This document shows positions 7,277 through 13,414 of a stretch of DNA of 43,439 nucleotides, one piece after another. How positions within the stretch are numbered: the first letter of the stretch is position 1; the number at the start of each line of letters is the position of its first letter. The position numbers and the translations under genes were made by a program. The notes beneath the pieces are model-generated. The model saw only the letters and a program-made list of their open reading frames with translations, was not told the origin of the DNA and searched no databases. This DNA comes from an uncultured bacterium (GTDB taxonomy: Bacteria; Verrucomicrobiota; Kiritimatiellia; RFP12; UBA1067). The stretch is taken from NCBI GenBank assembly GCA_903935195.1, contig CAIZQW010000240.1, forward strand, positions 1 through 43,439, read 5' to 3'.

Positions 7277-8435
7277 GCAGAAGGGTCGTAATTAGACATA
7301 GGACATTTCTCATCCTTTCTCCTTAAGCGCAAGCATCACCTTGCGGAGGGAACGGCTCAGTTTCTTCTCTTCGGACAGGCGCACGGATATCCGCTGGACG
7401 GCTTTTGAGACACCGTGGATGCTCATCCCCGACAGTTCACCGAGTTCGGCGAGCGTCCGTCCTGAACGGGTGCGGGCCACGTAAAGGGCGAGATCGCGTC
7501 CCCAGTCACCGCGCCGGTCAGCAAAGTCCTGCCACGGTTCGCCCTTCACCTGCTCGACAGCCTTGACGACTGCGTCAAAGGACAGCAGCTTGCGCCACGC
7601 CCTGGCATTCGTCTCCGACCCCGCTTTGAGCGGTACCTTGCGCCTCAGCCCTTCGATGAAGGATGTCCCGCCGATGGCCAAGGCTGCCGTCAGCCGCTCG
7701 AAGACTCCTTCCTCCACGCCCTGGCGCAGGTAGTCCTCGATGTAACGGCGGTAGTCCGCTTTCGGGTCGGCGTCCTTCTTCTGCCCTGCGTGCCACCAGA
7801 GCCTCTCGCAGTTCAGCCAGTCCGGCTTCGGCGCATACCCCGCATACGCGTGATAGGAACTCCACGGATGGTTGCGCAGTACAGCGAGACGCGCCTTCAC
7901 CTGTTCCGCCGTCGGACCCTCCTGCATGAATCCCGCCTTTTCCATGGCACGGTCTTCCTTGCCCTGCCCGAGGCTTTGGATGCGCACGGGATTCAGGTGG
8001 ATATAGATGCTGCAAGTCAGCGCCCACGACCCCTGGTTGTCCACGGGGATGCTCTTGAAGCGCGCCTGAAAGAGCGGCCCGGAGCGTCCATGCTTGGCGT
8101 TGAACCAGGCGGCATAGCTCAAATTGAGCCACTGCAGCGCCCGGCTGGCGTTCCCTTCGGGGGTCTCGATCAGCAGATGGTAATGATTGTCCATGAGCAC
8201 GTAGGCGTGCAGCACGACGCAGTAGCGCTCGACCATCGTGGACAGCAGTTCCACGAAATGCTCCCTGTCACGGTCATTCTCGAAAATGTCCTTTCGGAAC
8301 ATTCCGCGCGTGGTGATGTGATACCAGCCGCCTTCCACATTGTGTCTGAGTTGTCTTGGCATGGTCGCACTATATCAAAATCCGCCTAACTTCGCAACAC
8401 CTCATTTGTCCTATGTCTAATTACGACCCCTCTGC
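7277..8435 (-). mobile_element. RAYT element A (IS200-like Y1 transposase with 29-bp inverted ends)
   Basis: The boundaries come from a 29-bp terminal inverted repeat at 7277-7305 and 8407-8435 with one mismatch. It contains the core GGGTCGTAATTAGACAT (inverted at the right end). One transposase gene fills the interior. No target duplication is visible, as expected for Y1-type elements. The right end lies inside the reading frame of the secreted gene starting at 8655, which it truncates. Confidence 0.8.
7310..8362 (-). CDS. REP-associated tyrosine transposase (RAYT, Y1_Tnp family)
   Basis: This 350-residue protein starts with the family signature WYHITTRGMFRKDIF. It has the HUH metal motif in DNHYHLLIET and the nucleophile region LNLSYAAWFNAKHGRSG, followed by FQARFKSIPVD and CSIYIHLNPVR. 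It is the single-strand DNA transposase/nuclease of the IS200/IS605 superfamily. The C-terminal 100 residues (LAELGELSGMSIHGVSKAVQ) look like a helix-turn-helix of DnaA-C type, common in this RAYT subgroup. It is complete and closely similar to the copy at 10172-11239, so both may be recently active. Confidence 0.92.
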   Translation of the reverse strand: MPRQLRHNVEGGWYHITTRGMFRKDIFENDRDREHFVELLSTMVERYCVVLHAYVLMDNHYHLLIETPEGNASRALQWLNLSYAAWFNAKHGRSGPLFQARFKSIPVDNQGSWALTCSIYIHLNPVRIQSLGQGKEDRAMEKAGFMQEGPTAEQVKARLAVLRNHPWSSYHAYAGYAPKPDWLNCERLWWHAGQKKDADPKADYRRYIEDYLRQGVEEGVFERLTAALAIGGTSFIEGLRRKVPLKAGSETNARAWRKLLSFDAVVKAVEQVKGEPWQDFADRRGDWGRDLALYVARTRSGRTLAELGELSGMSIHGVSKAVQRISVRLSEEKKLSRSLRKVMLALKEKG

Positions 8436-10147: not shown

Positions 10148-11313
10148 AGGCATAGGGGTCGTAATTTGACATTAGACATTTAGCTCTCCATTCTGAATGA
10201 GTTTCTTCAGGATCTTCGCGGATACCCTCTGCATTTTCCGGTCGGTCTTCAGTCTTTTAACCATCCGCTCGCAGGCCTTTGCGACACAGGGGACGGTCAT
10301 TCCTCCCGCCTCTTTGCCCAGTTCCCTCAGCGTCAGTCCGCACTTCAGACGCCCGATATGCAGCGCAAGGTCACGCCCATAATCGCCATGGCGACCGATG
10401 AAGTCATCCCAGCGTTCACCCCTGACGGATTCAATCGCCCGAACCACTTCCGCAAATGGGAGCAGCCTGCGCCAGGAACGCGCATTCGTCTCCCCTGCCG
10501 CGCGCTTGGGAACCTTCCGGCGCAGGTTCTCGATAAACGTCGTCCCGCCGATGGCCAGAGCCGCCGTCAGGCGCGCGAAGACGCCTTCCTCGACGCCCTG
10601 ACGCACGTAGTCCTCGAGATAACGCCGGTAATCCGCTTTCGGATCGACCCCCTTCTCCTGCCCGGCGTGCCACCAGAGCCTGTCGCAGGTCAGCCAGTCC
10701 GGTTTGGGCGCATAACCCGCATACGCGTGATAGGAACTCCAAAGATGCTTGCGCAACACGGCGAGCCGCGCCTTCACCTGTTCCGCTGTCGGCCCCTCCT
10801 GCATGAATCCGGCCTTCTCGCGGGAGCGCTCCTCCTTACCCTGCCCGAGGCTCCGGATGCGTATGGGGTTCAGATGGATATAGATGCTACACGTCAGCGC
10901 CCACGACCCCTCTCCGTCCACGGGGATGCTCTTGAAACGTGCTTGGAAGACCGGCCCCGAACGTTCATGCTTGGCGTTGAACCACGCGGCATAGCTCAGG
11001 TTTAACCACTGTAGCGCGCGGCTGGCGTTTGCCTCAGGGGTCTCTATCAGCAAGTGGTAATGGTTGTCCATCAGCACATAGGCATGTAGCACCACATCAT
11101 ATCTTTCAACCATTTCCTCCAGCAACTCGACGAAATGTTCACGGTCGCGGTCGGTCTCGAAAATCTCTTTTCGCCACATGCCCCGCGTGGTGATATGGTA
11201 CCACCCGCCTGCAAAATGATGCCTCAATTGTCTTGCCATGCCGATACAATACCAAAGTTAACTCCGAATATCCAGCCCTAAATGTCTAATGTCAAATTAC
11301 GACCCCTTTGCCT
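10148..11313 (-). mobile_element. RAYT element B (IS200-like, 36-bp inverted ends)
   Basis: A 36-bp terminal inverted repeat lies at 10148-10183 and 11278-11313 with a single mismatch. The core GGGGTCGTAATTTGACAT differs from element A at few bases (AATTTGAC against AATTAGAC). The element is 1166 bp long, nearly the same as element A (1159 bp). The transposase stop codon lies inside the left repeat. Confidence 0.8.
10172..11239 (-). CDS. REP-associated tyrosine transposase (RAYT), second copy
   Basis: This 355-residue protein is collinear with the 7310-8362 copy and identical over long stretches in the catalytic half (YHITTRGM, DNHYHLLIET, LNLSYAAWFNAKH, CSIYIHLNP, GFMQEGPTAEQVKARLAVLR). The C-terminal DNA-binding part diverges more (LTLRELGKEAGGMTVPCVAK). 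This matches the differences in the two elements' end sequences, so each protein probably recognises its own ends. The frame is complete. Confidence 0.92.
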   Translation of the reverse strand: MARQLRHHFAGGWYHITTRGMWRKEIFETDRDREHFVELLEEMVERYDVVLHAYVLMDNHYHLLIETPEANASRALQWLNLSYAAWFNAKHERSGPVFQARFKSIPVDGEGSWALTCSIYIHLNPIRIRSLGQGKEERSREKAGFMQEGPTAEQVKARLAVLRKHLWSSYHAYAGYAPKPDWLTCDRLWWHAGQEKGVDPKADYRRYLEDYVRQGVEEGVFARLTAALAIGGTTFIENLRRKVPKRAAGETNARSWRRLLPFAEVVRAIESVRGERWDDFIGRHGDYGRDLALHIGRLKCGLTLRELGKEAGGMTVPCVAKACERMVKRLKTDRKMQRVSAKILKKLIQNGELNV

Positions 11314-11350: not shown

Positions 11351-12751
11351 TTACAGATGTTTGATGTCAACCATCAGTTCGGTGTTGGCATCCCAGCCGT
11401 CAAGTAAGAAGGCGTTCTCTTTGCGATCTGCAATCAGGCGCAAGGCGTAACGGACCTGTTCTTCATAGAGTTCACAAAAAGCCCCTGGCTGGTTCATTCC
11501 TCCATTCATCTCGTGCGCTTCAGCCGGACACGGCGAGCCACAGAAATGGCGTACGGCACAGCGACTGCAACCGTCAATATTCTCGACTTTGCGTTGGGTG
11601 CACCCTTCAAAGGCACTGCTCTTGAGCGCCTGCTTCAGTTCGCCGTCAAAGAGGTTGCCGCCTTTAAAGGTTGAAACACCGACGAATTCACTGCAGGGGA
11701 AGAGGTCGCCACTTGCCGAAACTGCAAAGAATGCCCTCCCTCCGCCACACGGTGAAATATCGCACATCAACTTGCGAGCCGTCGGGGCGACAATGCCAAG
11801 AATGATATTCGCAAAATTAGCCACAACGATTTTTCGGCCTGTCTTTTCAAAGAGTTCGTATGTACGATCGAGGGCTTTTAGATAGTGCGGAACCAATTCG
11901 TGATCCTTGGGTTTGACATCGCGAGCCCCTTGCCGTGTGCAACGCACAGGGTTTAGCATACAGACAGGCACCTCGTTCGCATGAAAGTAGTCTATGGTCT
12001 GCGAGAGGGTCGACATGTTTTTTTGGGTCACGGTTGAGATCACATTGTAGTTCGGATACCCCTTCAGCTTTTGAAGCAGTGCGGAGACCTCGGCAAACAC
12101 ACCCTTGCCATCCCATGTTTTCCGGTTCTGGTCGGCTACAGTCGCGTCCGGACCATCAATGGAGATACCAATGCCGATATTTCGCTCCATCAGGAAGGCC
12201 AATGTTTCGTCGTCGAGCAACGTACCGTTTGTCTGGACACCAAACCGAAAATCATTTTTATAGGCCTCAATTCCCGCAAAGACCGCCTCCTTGTTCGTCA
12301 GTGGCTCCGCACCATGAAAAATGACCTGCGCTTTACGCCCTTCAGGAAGGGTTTGACCGAAATATTCCTTGAGTATTCCAAGTGCCTCGCAGAGTCGCTC
12401 GGGGGTCATGTGAACCCCCTGCTGTCTCATCTCTTCAGGAATATAACAGTAGGTGCAGTTCAGATTACAGCGATCCGTTGGATTGAAATAGACAGCAGAA
12501 GGCACAAGGCCGAAACGGAGCTTCTGCATCTCTTTTGCGAAGAGCTCCGCCTTTGAATTAAACTGGGCGAGTAACTTACCGTCGCACAGGGCATCTCCTA
12601 GTTTATCCTTCTCAATCAGCGACCAAAATGCCGTGTCCGGCTCTAGGAGCCCGATATACTTCGTGTGCCCAATATCAATGGGCAAAAGAGCTGGCCCAGC
12701 GCCTGTATTAAAATGGGATCCCGTGGATGAGAGATTCTTTATTTTGTTCAT
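11351..12751 (-). CDS. cbpB: Radical SAM/SPASM peptide maturase, CbpB-like
   Basis: This 466-residue protein contains the radical SAM cluster motif CNLNCTYC (C95, C99, C102) and a C-terminal SPASM region with many Cys (CGGG, FPCSEF, CTQRKVENIDGCSRC, FCGSPCPAE, FCELYEEQ) for two auxiliary Fe-S clusters. Such enzymes modify ribosomally made peptides. The overall sequence resembles the family I remember as 'peptide-modifying radical SAM enzyme CbpB' (TIGR04163); that name needs a profile search. A 69-codon upstream extension of the frame runs through a palindromic repeat, so I chose the ATG at 12751, which is preceded by AAGGA. The likely substrate is the 30-residue peptide gene at 12951-13043, and the whole unit lies behind a cobalamin riboswitch. 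Confidence 0.8.
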   Translation of the reverse strand: MNKIKNLSSTGSHFNTGAGPALLPIDIGHTKYIGLLEPDTAFWSLIEKDKLGDALCDGKLLAQFNSKAELFAKEMQKLRFGLVPSAVYFNPTDRCNLNCTYCYIPEEMRQQGVHMTPERLCEALGILKEYFGQTLPEGRKAQVIFHGAEPLTNKEAVFAGIEAYKNDFRFGVQTNGTLLDDETLAFLMERNIGIGISIDGPDATVADQNRKTWDGKGVFAEVSALLQKLKGYPNYNVISTVTQKNMSTLSQTIDYFHANEVPVCMLNPVRCTRQGARDVKPKDHELVPHYLKALDRTYELFEKTGRKIVVANFANIILGIVAPTARKLMCDISPCGGGRAFFAVSASGDLFPCSEFVGVSTFKGGNLFDGELKQALKSSAFEGCTQRKVENIDGCSRCAVRHFCGSPCPAEAHEMNGGMNQPGAFCELYEEQVRYALRLIADRKENAFLLDGWDANTELMVDIKHL

Positions 12752-12790
12752 CTTGTTGTGTTCCTTGACTATAGCTTCAAACTGGCATGA

Positions 12791-12935
12791 TGGAATATGG
12801 GAATGTTGGAATGGTGGGTGGAGACGGACTATCGGCCTCGGGAGGGGTACGCGTCTGCGTACCTTGGACGAGCAGACGCTCGTCCCTCCCAATCGCGAAT
12901 TCTTCCAATATTCCAGTATTCCACCATTCCAACAA
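12791..12935. repeat. Cloverleaf-like palindromic repeat between the peptide gene and its maturase
   Basis: The outer arms are a perfect 14-bp inverted repeat: TGTTGGAATGGTGG (12804-12817) with CCACCATTCCAACA (12921-12934). Inside lie GGGAGGG/CCCTCCC (12840-12846, 12884-12890) and two tight hairpins. These are GGTACGC-GTCT-GCGTACC (12846-12863) and GGACGAGC-AGAC-GCTCGTCC (12866-12885), each with a 4-nt loop. The flanks carry ATTCCA-type short repeats, and a 15-nt stretch (12909-12923) recurs exactly at 34623-34637. It looks like a dispersed, folding repeat element. Confidence 0.8.
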
Positions 12936-12950
12936 AGCCACATCGTGGCG

Positions 12951-13043
12951 TTATTCATTTTCCATCAGGATAAAGTGTGATAATCCCGTGCCGTCAATGG
13001 AACAACACCGCCGATAAGCAATAATGCTTGTTTCTTCGTTCAT
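12951..13043 (-). CDS. cbpA: 30-residue precursor peptide of a radical-SAM-modified product (CbpA-like)
   Basis: The ATG at 13043 is preceded by AAGAGGAG, 7-8 nt away, a strong ribosome binding site. The frame encodes 30 residues and ends with TAA at 12951. After a short acidic leader the peptide has IIAYRRCCSIDGTGLSHFIL, with paired Cys and a Gly/Thr/Gly/Ser/His core, then MENE. The placement fits a precursor for the radical SAM/SPASM enzyme encoded next on the same strand. It is the first gene after the cobalamin riboswitch and terminator. The resemblance to the family called CbpA is from memory. Which residues are modified, and whether a leader is cut off, cannot be seen. Confidence 0.75.
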   Translation of the reverse strand: MNEETSIIAYRRCCSIDGTGLSHFILMENE

Positions 13044-13113
13044 CTCATCTCTCCTCTTAATACTGAGCACTACTTTTTTAGTGTTTAAAGAGGATGTGCC
13101 CTATCCCCTAGAA

Positions 13114-13160
13114 ACAAAAAAACGAAACCCCCTGACACATTTTCATGTGTCAGGGGATTC
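13114..13160 (-). terminator. Intrinsic terminator between riboswitch and peptide gene
   Basis: A perfect 12-bp stem, CCCCTGACACAT (minus strand, 13156-13145) with ATGTGTCAGGGG (13140-13129), closes a GAAA tetraloop. It is followed on the minus strand by GTTTCGTTTTTTT (to about 13116). It lies downstream of the riboswitch aptamer and upstream of the peptide start, the position of a regulated transcription stop. Confidence 0.9.
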
Positions 13161-13164
13161 CGTT

Positions 13165-13381
13165 TTCAATCCCAAAAGACAAAGCTATAATGTCATGTTC
13201 CCTTTCCACGAGGAACATAGCATTTATAACGCGAAAAGCAAGTATTCCGACTTCCAGATCACCCTACTCACTGCGACTTCCCATCCTCTCGGACAGTGTC
13301 TCTTGCAGTTTTCGTCCCTGGTTACGGCGGCGGGACCGTGACGGACTTTCACCGTGCTTCCAATACTCTTCGTCTTGGCCG
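13165..13381 (-). ncRNA. Cobalamin riboswitch
   Basis: On the minus strand the conserved B12 aptamer core is seen at 13357-13320: GCACGGTGAAAGTCC, then CGGTCCCGCCGCCGTAA. The B12 box follows at about 13255-13238 (GGAAGTCGGAATACTTGC). Order and spacing match the cobalamin riboswitch family. The aptamer is followed at once by an intrinsic terminator, so high cobalamin is expected to stop transcription before the peptide and maturase genes. The 5' end is set from the promoter at 13414-13387; the 3' limit is approximate. Confidence 0.9.
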
Positions 13382-13386
13382 CTAAC

Positions 13387-13414
13387 TTTACACTAATTCT
13401 TTAGCTCTTGTCAA
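13387..13414 (-). promoter_or_regulatory. Promoter of the riboswitch unit
   Basis: Minus strand: -35 TTGACA (13414-13409), 16-nt spacer, -10 TGTAAA (13392-13387). Transcription would begin near 13381, immediately before the aptamer. It lies just past the 3' end of the outer-membrane gene, giving the riboswitch unit its own transcript. Confidence 0.6.

Follow-up and report, generated by a model that had tools for sequence, protein, structure and literature searches.

A cobalamin riboswitch in front of a CbpA/CbpB peptide and radical SAM/SPASM maturase pair, and a B12 link that runs through the family

The window analysed here, a 43,439-nucleotide stretch from an uncultured bacterium of the Kiritimatiellia (contig CAIZQW010000240.1), carries on its minus strand, in this order, a promoter-like site, a cobalamin riboswitch, an intrinsic terminator, the precursor peptide gene cbpA and the maturase gene cbpB, laid out as follows.

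13385..13414, minus strand: sigma-70-like promoter-like site, TTGACA/18 nt/TAAAGT (consensus scan, 10/12 matches)
13220..13405, minus strand: cobalamin riboswitch aptamer, RF00174 (cmscan 75.5 bits, model positions 1-189)
about 13121..13164, minus strand: intrinsic terminator, the expression platform (hairpin and T tract, shuffle test)
12951..13043, minus strand: cbpA, 30-aa precursor peptide MNEETSIIAYRRCCSIDGTGLSHFILMENE (TIGR04164 match)
12770..12945, minus strand: dispersed palindromic repeat between cbpA and cbpB (51 matches in the genome; folded spacer z = -5.8)
11351..12751, minus strand: cbpB, radical SAM/SPASM peptide maturase, 466 aa (TIGR04163; Pfam Radical_SAM and SPASM)

An initial annotation, made from the sequence alone, had read this region as a promoter, a B12 riboswitch, a perfect intrinsic terminator and a 30-codon gene with its ribosome binding site, followed by a radical SAM/SPASM enzyme, and had mentioned CbpA/CbpB as a name; nearly all of this was confirmed. 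The aptamer matches RF00174 over the full length of the covariance model (75.5 bits against a gathering score of 31.5, E = 5.7e-17), and its B12 box reads GACACUG. The terminator is indeed a perfect hairpin, of 23 bp with a GAAA loop and a T tract after it, and none of 200 shuffled sequences folded equally well (z = -8.5 for the leader segment, -9.2 for the terminator alone). When the leader is folded without the 3' half of the terminator, the 5' half pairs upstream, GGGAUU with AAUCCC, forming a candidate antiterminator in this model. The promoter held up only in part: a TTGACA/18/TAAAGT site is present where expected, but such sites are no more numerous in the region than in shuffles, and position is what backs the one at 13385-13414. 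With a terminator between the aptamer and the first gene, the architecture points to an off switch of the terminator type, and we consider it nearly certain that cbpAB is regulated by cobamide, the direction of the switch being read from the same layout. Aptamer family and off-switch architecture are shared with the terminator-type cobalamin riboswitches of btuB, cbiM and the cob genes; unlike those, the switch in the window has as its first controlled gene a 30-codon peptide gene rather than one for a transporter or biosynthetic enzyme.

Both window proteins score above curated cut-offs, and the gene order is identical to that of known CbpA/CbpB pairs. CbpA, whose reading frame has AGGAGA just upstream of its ATG, matches TIGR04164 with 37.9 bits (cut-off 35, residues 8-30), and CbpB matches TIGR04163 with 708.7 bits (cut-off 375, residues 23-449). 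The locus is therefore a further member of the existing, functionally uncharacterised NCBIfam families CbpA (TIGR04164) and CbpB (TIGR04163). Their short names, cobo_pep and rSAM_cobopep, suggest that the curators had already seen a connection with cobalt or cobalamin. Our literature search found no paper naming TIGR04163, TIGR04164 or cobopep, no paper joining a cobalamin riboswitch with a radical SAM/SPASM peptide system, and no experiment on the CbpA/CbpB family; what is new here is the strength of the family-wide B12 link, drawn from a survey of the best 80 of 420 relatives. At 30 aa the window precursor is shorter than other CbpA peptides; it has no Lys-rich flanks, a second Cys adjoins the invariant one, and Phe takes the place of Tyr. 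Apart from the dispersed repeat that separates its two genes, the window locus shows no essential difference from other CbpA/CbpB loci.

The cluster-binding cysteines of CbpB are C95, C99 and C102 (CX3CX2C), C335-X12-G-X4-C353, C395, C398, C404 and C408, and C426; the CX3CX2C motif and the full SPASM cysteine set are invariant across 60 sequences. The predicted structure (mean pLDDT 88.5) has CteB as its closest fold (5WGG, E = 2.2e-22, TM 0.69), with the anaerobic sulfatase-maturating enzyme and ChlB next, and the nearest curated family after CbpB's own is PapB. CbpB thus shares its radical SAM/SPASM architecture with the thioether-forming PapA/PapB and CteA/CteB systems of the ranthipeptide/SCIFF type, PapB being nearest in sequence and CteB in fold. 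It nevertheless scores far below the cut-offs for both the PapB ranthipeptide maturase (NF047865, 161.1 bits against 340) and the SCIFF maturase (TIGR03974, 125.8 bits against 425), and CbpA has a single invariant Cys, with neither a CX3D motif nor six cysteines. PapB acts on CX3D motifs, in which it links the Cys with the Asp (PMC9413430). In the model, the N-terminal domain of CbpB has three strands and two helices (pLDDT 82); it gave no significant PDB match, peptide-recognition domains included. That CbpB acts on CbpA is very likely, and the modification is predicted from family membership. By analogy with these relatives, the likeliest modification would be a thioether joining the invariant CbpA Cys with a residue that lies 4-7 positions downstream, a guess against which the low scores of CbpB in the PapB and SCIFF families do count. 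The proposal of the initial annotation that a modified peptide is made only when B12 is short accordingly divides into parts: the off-switch layout and the CbpA/CbpB identity agree with it, while the modification itself is taken from family membership.

To place the locus in its family, CbpB relatives were collected by a GTDB genome scan, which returned 420, of which the best 80 were kept, so that the closer part of the family is what was sampled. These 80 come from bins labelled Chloroflexota, desulfobacterial and other deltaproteobacterial groups, Verrucomicrobiota, Kiritimatiellota, Lentisphaerota, Planctomycetota, Nitrospirota, Omnitrophota, Acidobacteriota, Elusimicrobiota, Nitrospinota, Pseudomonadota and Bacillota; some are near copies of one another (e.g. 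L029/L030/L039, L009/L070 and L073/L082), and the counts below are not fully independent. A short CbpA precursor gene lies directly upstream of the maturase in the window and in all 76 loci with enough contig, the remaining four being cut by a contig start, and the short frame is thus conserved beside homologous maturases, as the initial annotation had expected.

The conserved core of the precursors reads R-K-x-C-x-x-x-G-[T/A/V]-G-L-S-H-[Y/F]-I-L. Among 72 unique core strings, one of which (from L028) is a spurious match, six positions are invariant in the genuine cores (Arg -3, Cys 0, Gly +4, Gly +6, Leu +7 and His +9) and four are nearly so (Ile/Val -6, Lys/Arg -2, Ser +8 and Tyr/Phe +10), the middle residue of the GTG stretch being Thr, Ala, Val or Ile. 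One precursor reading frame (L081:1124-1354) holds two tandem copies of the whole core, which marks the conserved stretch as the functional unit. Conservation of this kind would be easier to explain for a product whose structure is fixed than for an antibiotic or an immunity-matched signal. PQQ and mycofactocin are peptide-derived redox cofactors, and cbpAB resembles them in combining a near-invariant precursor core with a radical SAM/SPASM enzyme, as expected for a product of fixed structure; it differs from them in that the family as a whole has no further tailoring enzymes and no partner dehydrogenases that recur next to cbpAB.

A survey of homologous loci for B12 riboswitches, as the initial annotation had advised, found RF00174 on the same strand, no more than 1.3 kb upstream, in 52 of the 73 loci whose upstream sequence extends to 600 nt or more, where about 0.035 would be expected from the 88 riboswitches in 119.8 Mb of such genomes. 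In 30 of these 52 a terminator stands between riboswitch and cbpA, compared with 2.7% of mononucleotide shuffles. A proximal riboswitch is missing from the other 21 loci, 18 of which are embedded in cbi/cob/btu genes for cobalamin synthesis, salvage or uptake (L003, L004, L006, L007, L013, L014, L016, L018, L022, L026, L028, L032, L034, L035, L049, L051, L052 and L072), and a riboswitch stands at the head of some of these operons, such as the sole one of genome G230 (L049), at 212805-213010, directly before the operon stretch. The other three (L019, L073 and L082) showed no B12 link within the stretch seen. On the CbpB tree, loci change between the riboswitch and the operon arrangement nine times or more, which means that the B12 link was kept or regained by two routes. 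Among the best 80 of 420 relatives, then, cbpAB is tied to B12 genes or B12 switches in more than ten bacterial phyla, and the link is general to the family and no local accident. The commonest arrangement is a stand-alone riboswitch unit, and in genomes G233, G237 and G242 no cobalamin riboswitch other than that of cbpAB was found. Three further loci (L037, L040 and L042) have two divergent, back-to-back cobalamin riboswitches, one facing cbpAB and the other cobC-cobU-cobT-cobS.

Further bioinformatics analysis of B12 gene content showed that the 54 CbpB-bearing genomes include both makers and non-makers of the corrin ring, with cobS in 48, cobQ in 43, a clear or weak cbiM in 37 and cbiD in 33. 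Where the genomes were reached through the loci, 18 of 50 have no detectable cbiD, a gene of corrin-ring synthesis. The complete chromosome CP070837.1 (L049, G230) lacks cbiD, cbiM and cobQ and brings together in one stretch cobU, cobT, cobS, cbiB, cobD, an AsnB-like synthetase, cbpA, cbpB, btuF, btuC, a transport ATPase and a BtuB-like receptor. The common denominator is corrinoid salvage or late assembly, not cobalt insertion. In clusters of the Omnitrophota type, cbpAB occurs with BtuF, BtuC, BtuB and a DUF71 PP-loop ATPase (PF01902), joined in L052 by CbiZ. Gene clustering had independently led to the prediction that a bacterial DUF71-B12 subgroup acts in B12 salvage (PMC3541065), and some cbpAB copies lie within such DUF71-B12/BtuFCD salvage clusters, whereas no DUF71 gene was seen beside the window locus; a search of the text of that paper found mention of neither radical SAM nor riboswitch. 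Six loci (L026, L032, L034, L049, L052 and L072) place an AsnB-like synthetase next to cbpA or cbpB, and in several of them the DUF71 PP-loop ATPase is present too, as is a second small radical SAM protein; we would guess that the synthetase may serve there as a second tailoring enzyme.

Several narrower assignments were tried and rejected. CbpA as a substitute for CobD in supplying the aminopropanol donor is ruled out by the presence of CobD in most CbpB-bearing genomes; the stand-alone CobD proteins of Omnitrophota loci group with CobQ by way of CobD-CobQ fusions. A tie to de novo ring synthesis does not hold as a general rule, with cbiD in 33/54, even though cbiD is enriched relative to a background of 26/195 (Fisher p = 1.6e-12) in a comparison of unmatched samples from different phyla. 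A tie to CbiM is ruled out by several genomes with no match, G230 having none, and a tie to CbiZ corrinoid remodelling by the finding of CbiZ in 3/54, its rarity leaving a remodelling role specifically with little support. CbpB is itself patchy, above cut-off in 4 of 195 genomes sampled from the phylum of the window, and is thus dispensable to users of B12. The window genome encodes cbiD, cobQ, a CobD-like protein, cobS and cbiM, and the organism is for that reason probably a B12 maker. It has two cobalamin riboswitches only, the second of which precedes cbiM; beside that cbiM (L083:837-2698) lies a gene for a 372-aa protein with a CbiN-like N-terminus and a beta-barrel-looking C-terminus, without a match to any Pfam family.

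We suggest that cbpAB is a cobalamin-repressed operon whose product acts intracellularly, in the salvage, handling or late assembly of corrinoids, a reading to which we give a probability of about 0.5. With enough cobamide, the aptamer would bind it and the terminator would halt transcription; when cobamide is short, cbpA and cbpB would be transcribed, and CbpB would modify the conserved CbpA core, the most likely change being a thioether cross-link that starts at its one invariant Cys. The product would stay in the cell and aid a step common to B12 makers and salvagers, whether corrinoid uptake, handling or late assembly (the nucleotide-loop steps), as a small cofactor or a corrinoid-binding peptide with the invariant Cys/His region as its working end. 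That the CbpA product serves B12 metabolism in some way we regard as likely; the intracellular corrinoid role, the modification together with its position, and the sense in which the switch works are what we infer from the pattern. More tentatively, and with the odds leaning against so specific a form, CbpA may give rise to a peptide-derived cofactor or corrinoid-binding metallopeptide for B12 economy in makers and salvagers of more than ten phyla.

The modified peptide could instead spare B12, as a cofactor or regulator that enables B12-independent metabolism or adjusts B12-dependent enzymes when the vitamin is scarce. An architecture that is off when B12 is present, the prevalence of stand-alone riboswitch units and the genomes in which cbpAB is the only riboswitch-controlled gene found would all suit such a role, yet 18 loci lie inside synthesis, salvage or uptake clusters, the wrong place for a sparing factor, and no B12-independent isozyme was recognised among the recurring neighbour families; we think it unlikely. 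A peptide that binds cobalt and hands it on, either to CbiM transport or to the cobaltochelatase, would explain why cbpAB adjoins cbiM in L003, L011, L014, L018 and L022, why the sole other cobalamin riboswitch of the window genome precedes cbiM, and why Cys and His of CbpA are invariant. CbpB occurs, however, in genomes without cbiD, in one complete chromosome (G230, L049) without either cbiD or cbiM, and in cbiD-bearing genomes (G198, G199, G211 and G214) without a clear cbiM, and we hold cobalt handling to be quite improbable. The cobalt capture offered by the initial annotation is likewise unlikely as a general role: it would confine cbpAB to genomes with cobalt uptake and corrin-ring synthesis, and the lack of a detectable cbiD in 18 of 50 genomes, and of both cbiD and cbiM in a complete chromosome, tells against it.

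The same annotation had also raised cobalamin capture or signalling, and a secreted corrinoid-binding peptide or signal, a B12 counterpart of methanobactin, might be expected near the BtuB, BtuF, BtuC and transport ATPase genes found in about eight loci. No positive evidence for capture outside the cell or for signalling emerged: CbpA is short and has no evident signal sequence, the neighbourhoods show no recurring exporter or leader protease family, the core is nearly constant from phylum to phylum, in contrast to secreted competition peptides, and cbpAB is also present in Chloroflexota and in a Bacillota bin, all of which makes secretion a very doubtful reading. That cbpAB was merely swept along with the switch and has no B12 function would agree with the patchy distribution and the mixing of phyla on the CbpB tree, both of which fit horizontal transfer; it is extremely hard to reconcile with a B12 link kept through at least nine changes between riboswitch and operon and with near-perfect conservation of the peptide core.

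If CbpA does give rise to a peptide-derived cofactor or corrinoid-binding metallopeptide for B12 economy, a ribosomally made peptide would have a part in B12 metabolism, and the literature searched describes no component of that kind. The parts lists of B12 pathways are commonly taken to be all but complete, and a peptide with a near-invariant core, under B12 control or within B12 clusters in many phyla, suggests that a component of cobamide uptake, handling or assembly is missing from them. The regulatory survey across phyla turns the function of the family into a sharp question, and one that is directly testable, as peptide and enzyme are small and defined by sequence.

The palindromic repeat between cbpA and cbpB in the window is incidental and outside the architecture of the family, although it could lower the expression of cbpB relative to that of cbpA. 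It is about 160 bp long, and the longer of its 51 matches in the genome are about 70-87% identical. Close downstream of cbpB lie two related genes for REP-type (Y1) transposases (window positions 7310-8362 and 10172-11239), and these enzymes may mobilise the repeat.
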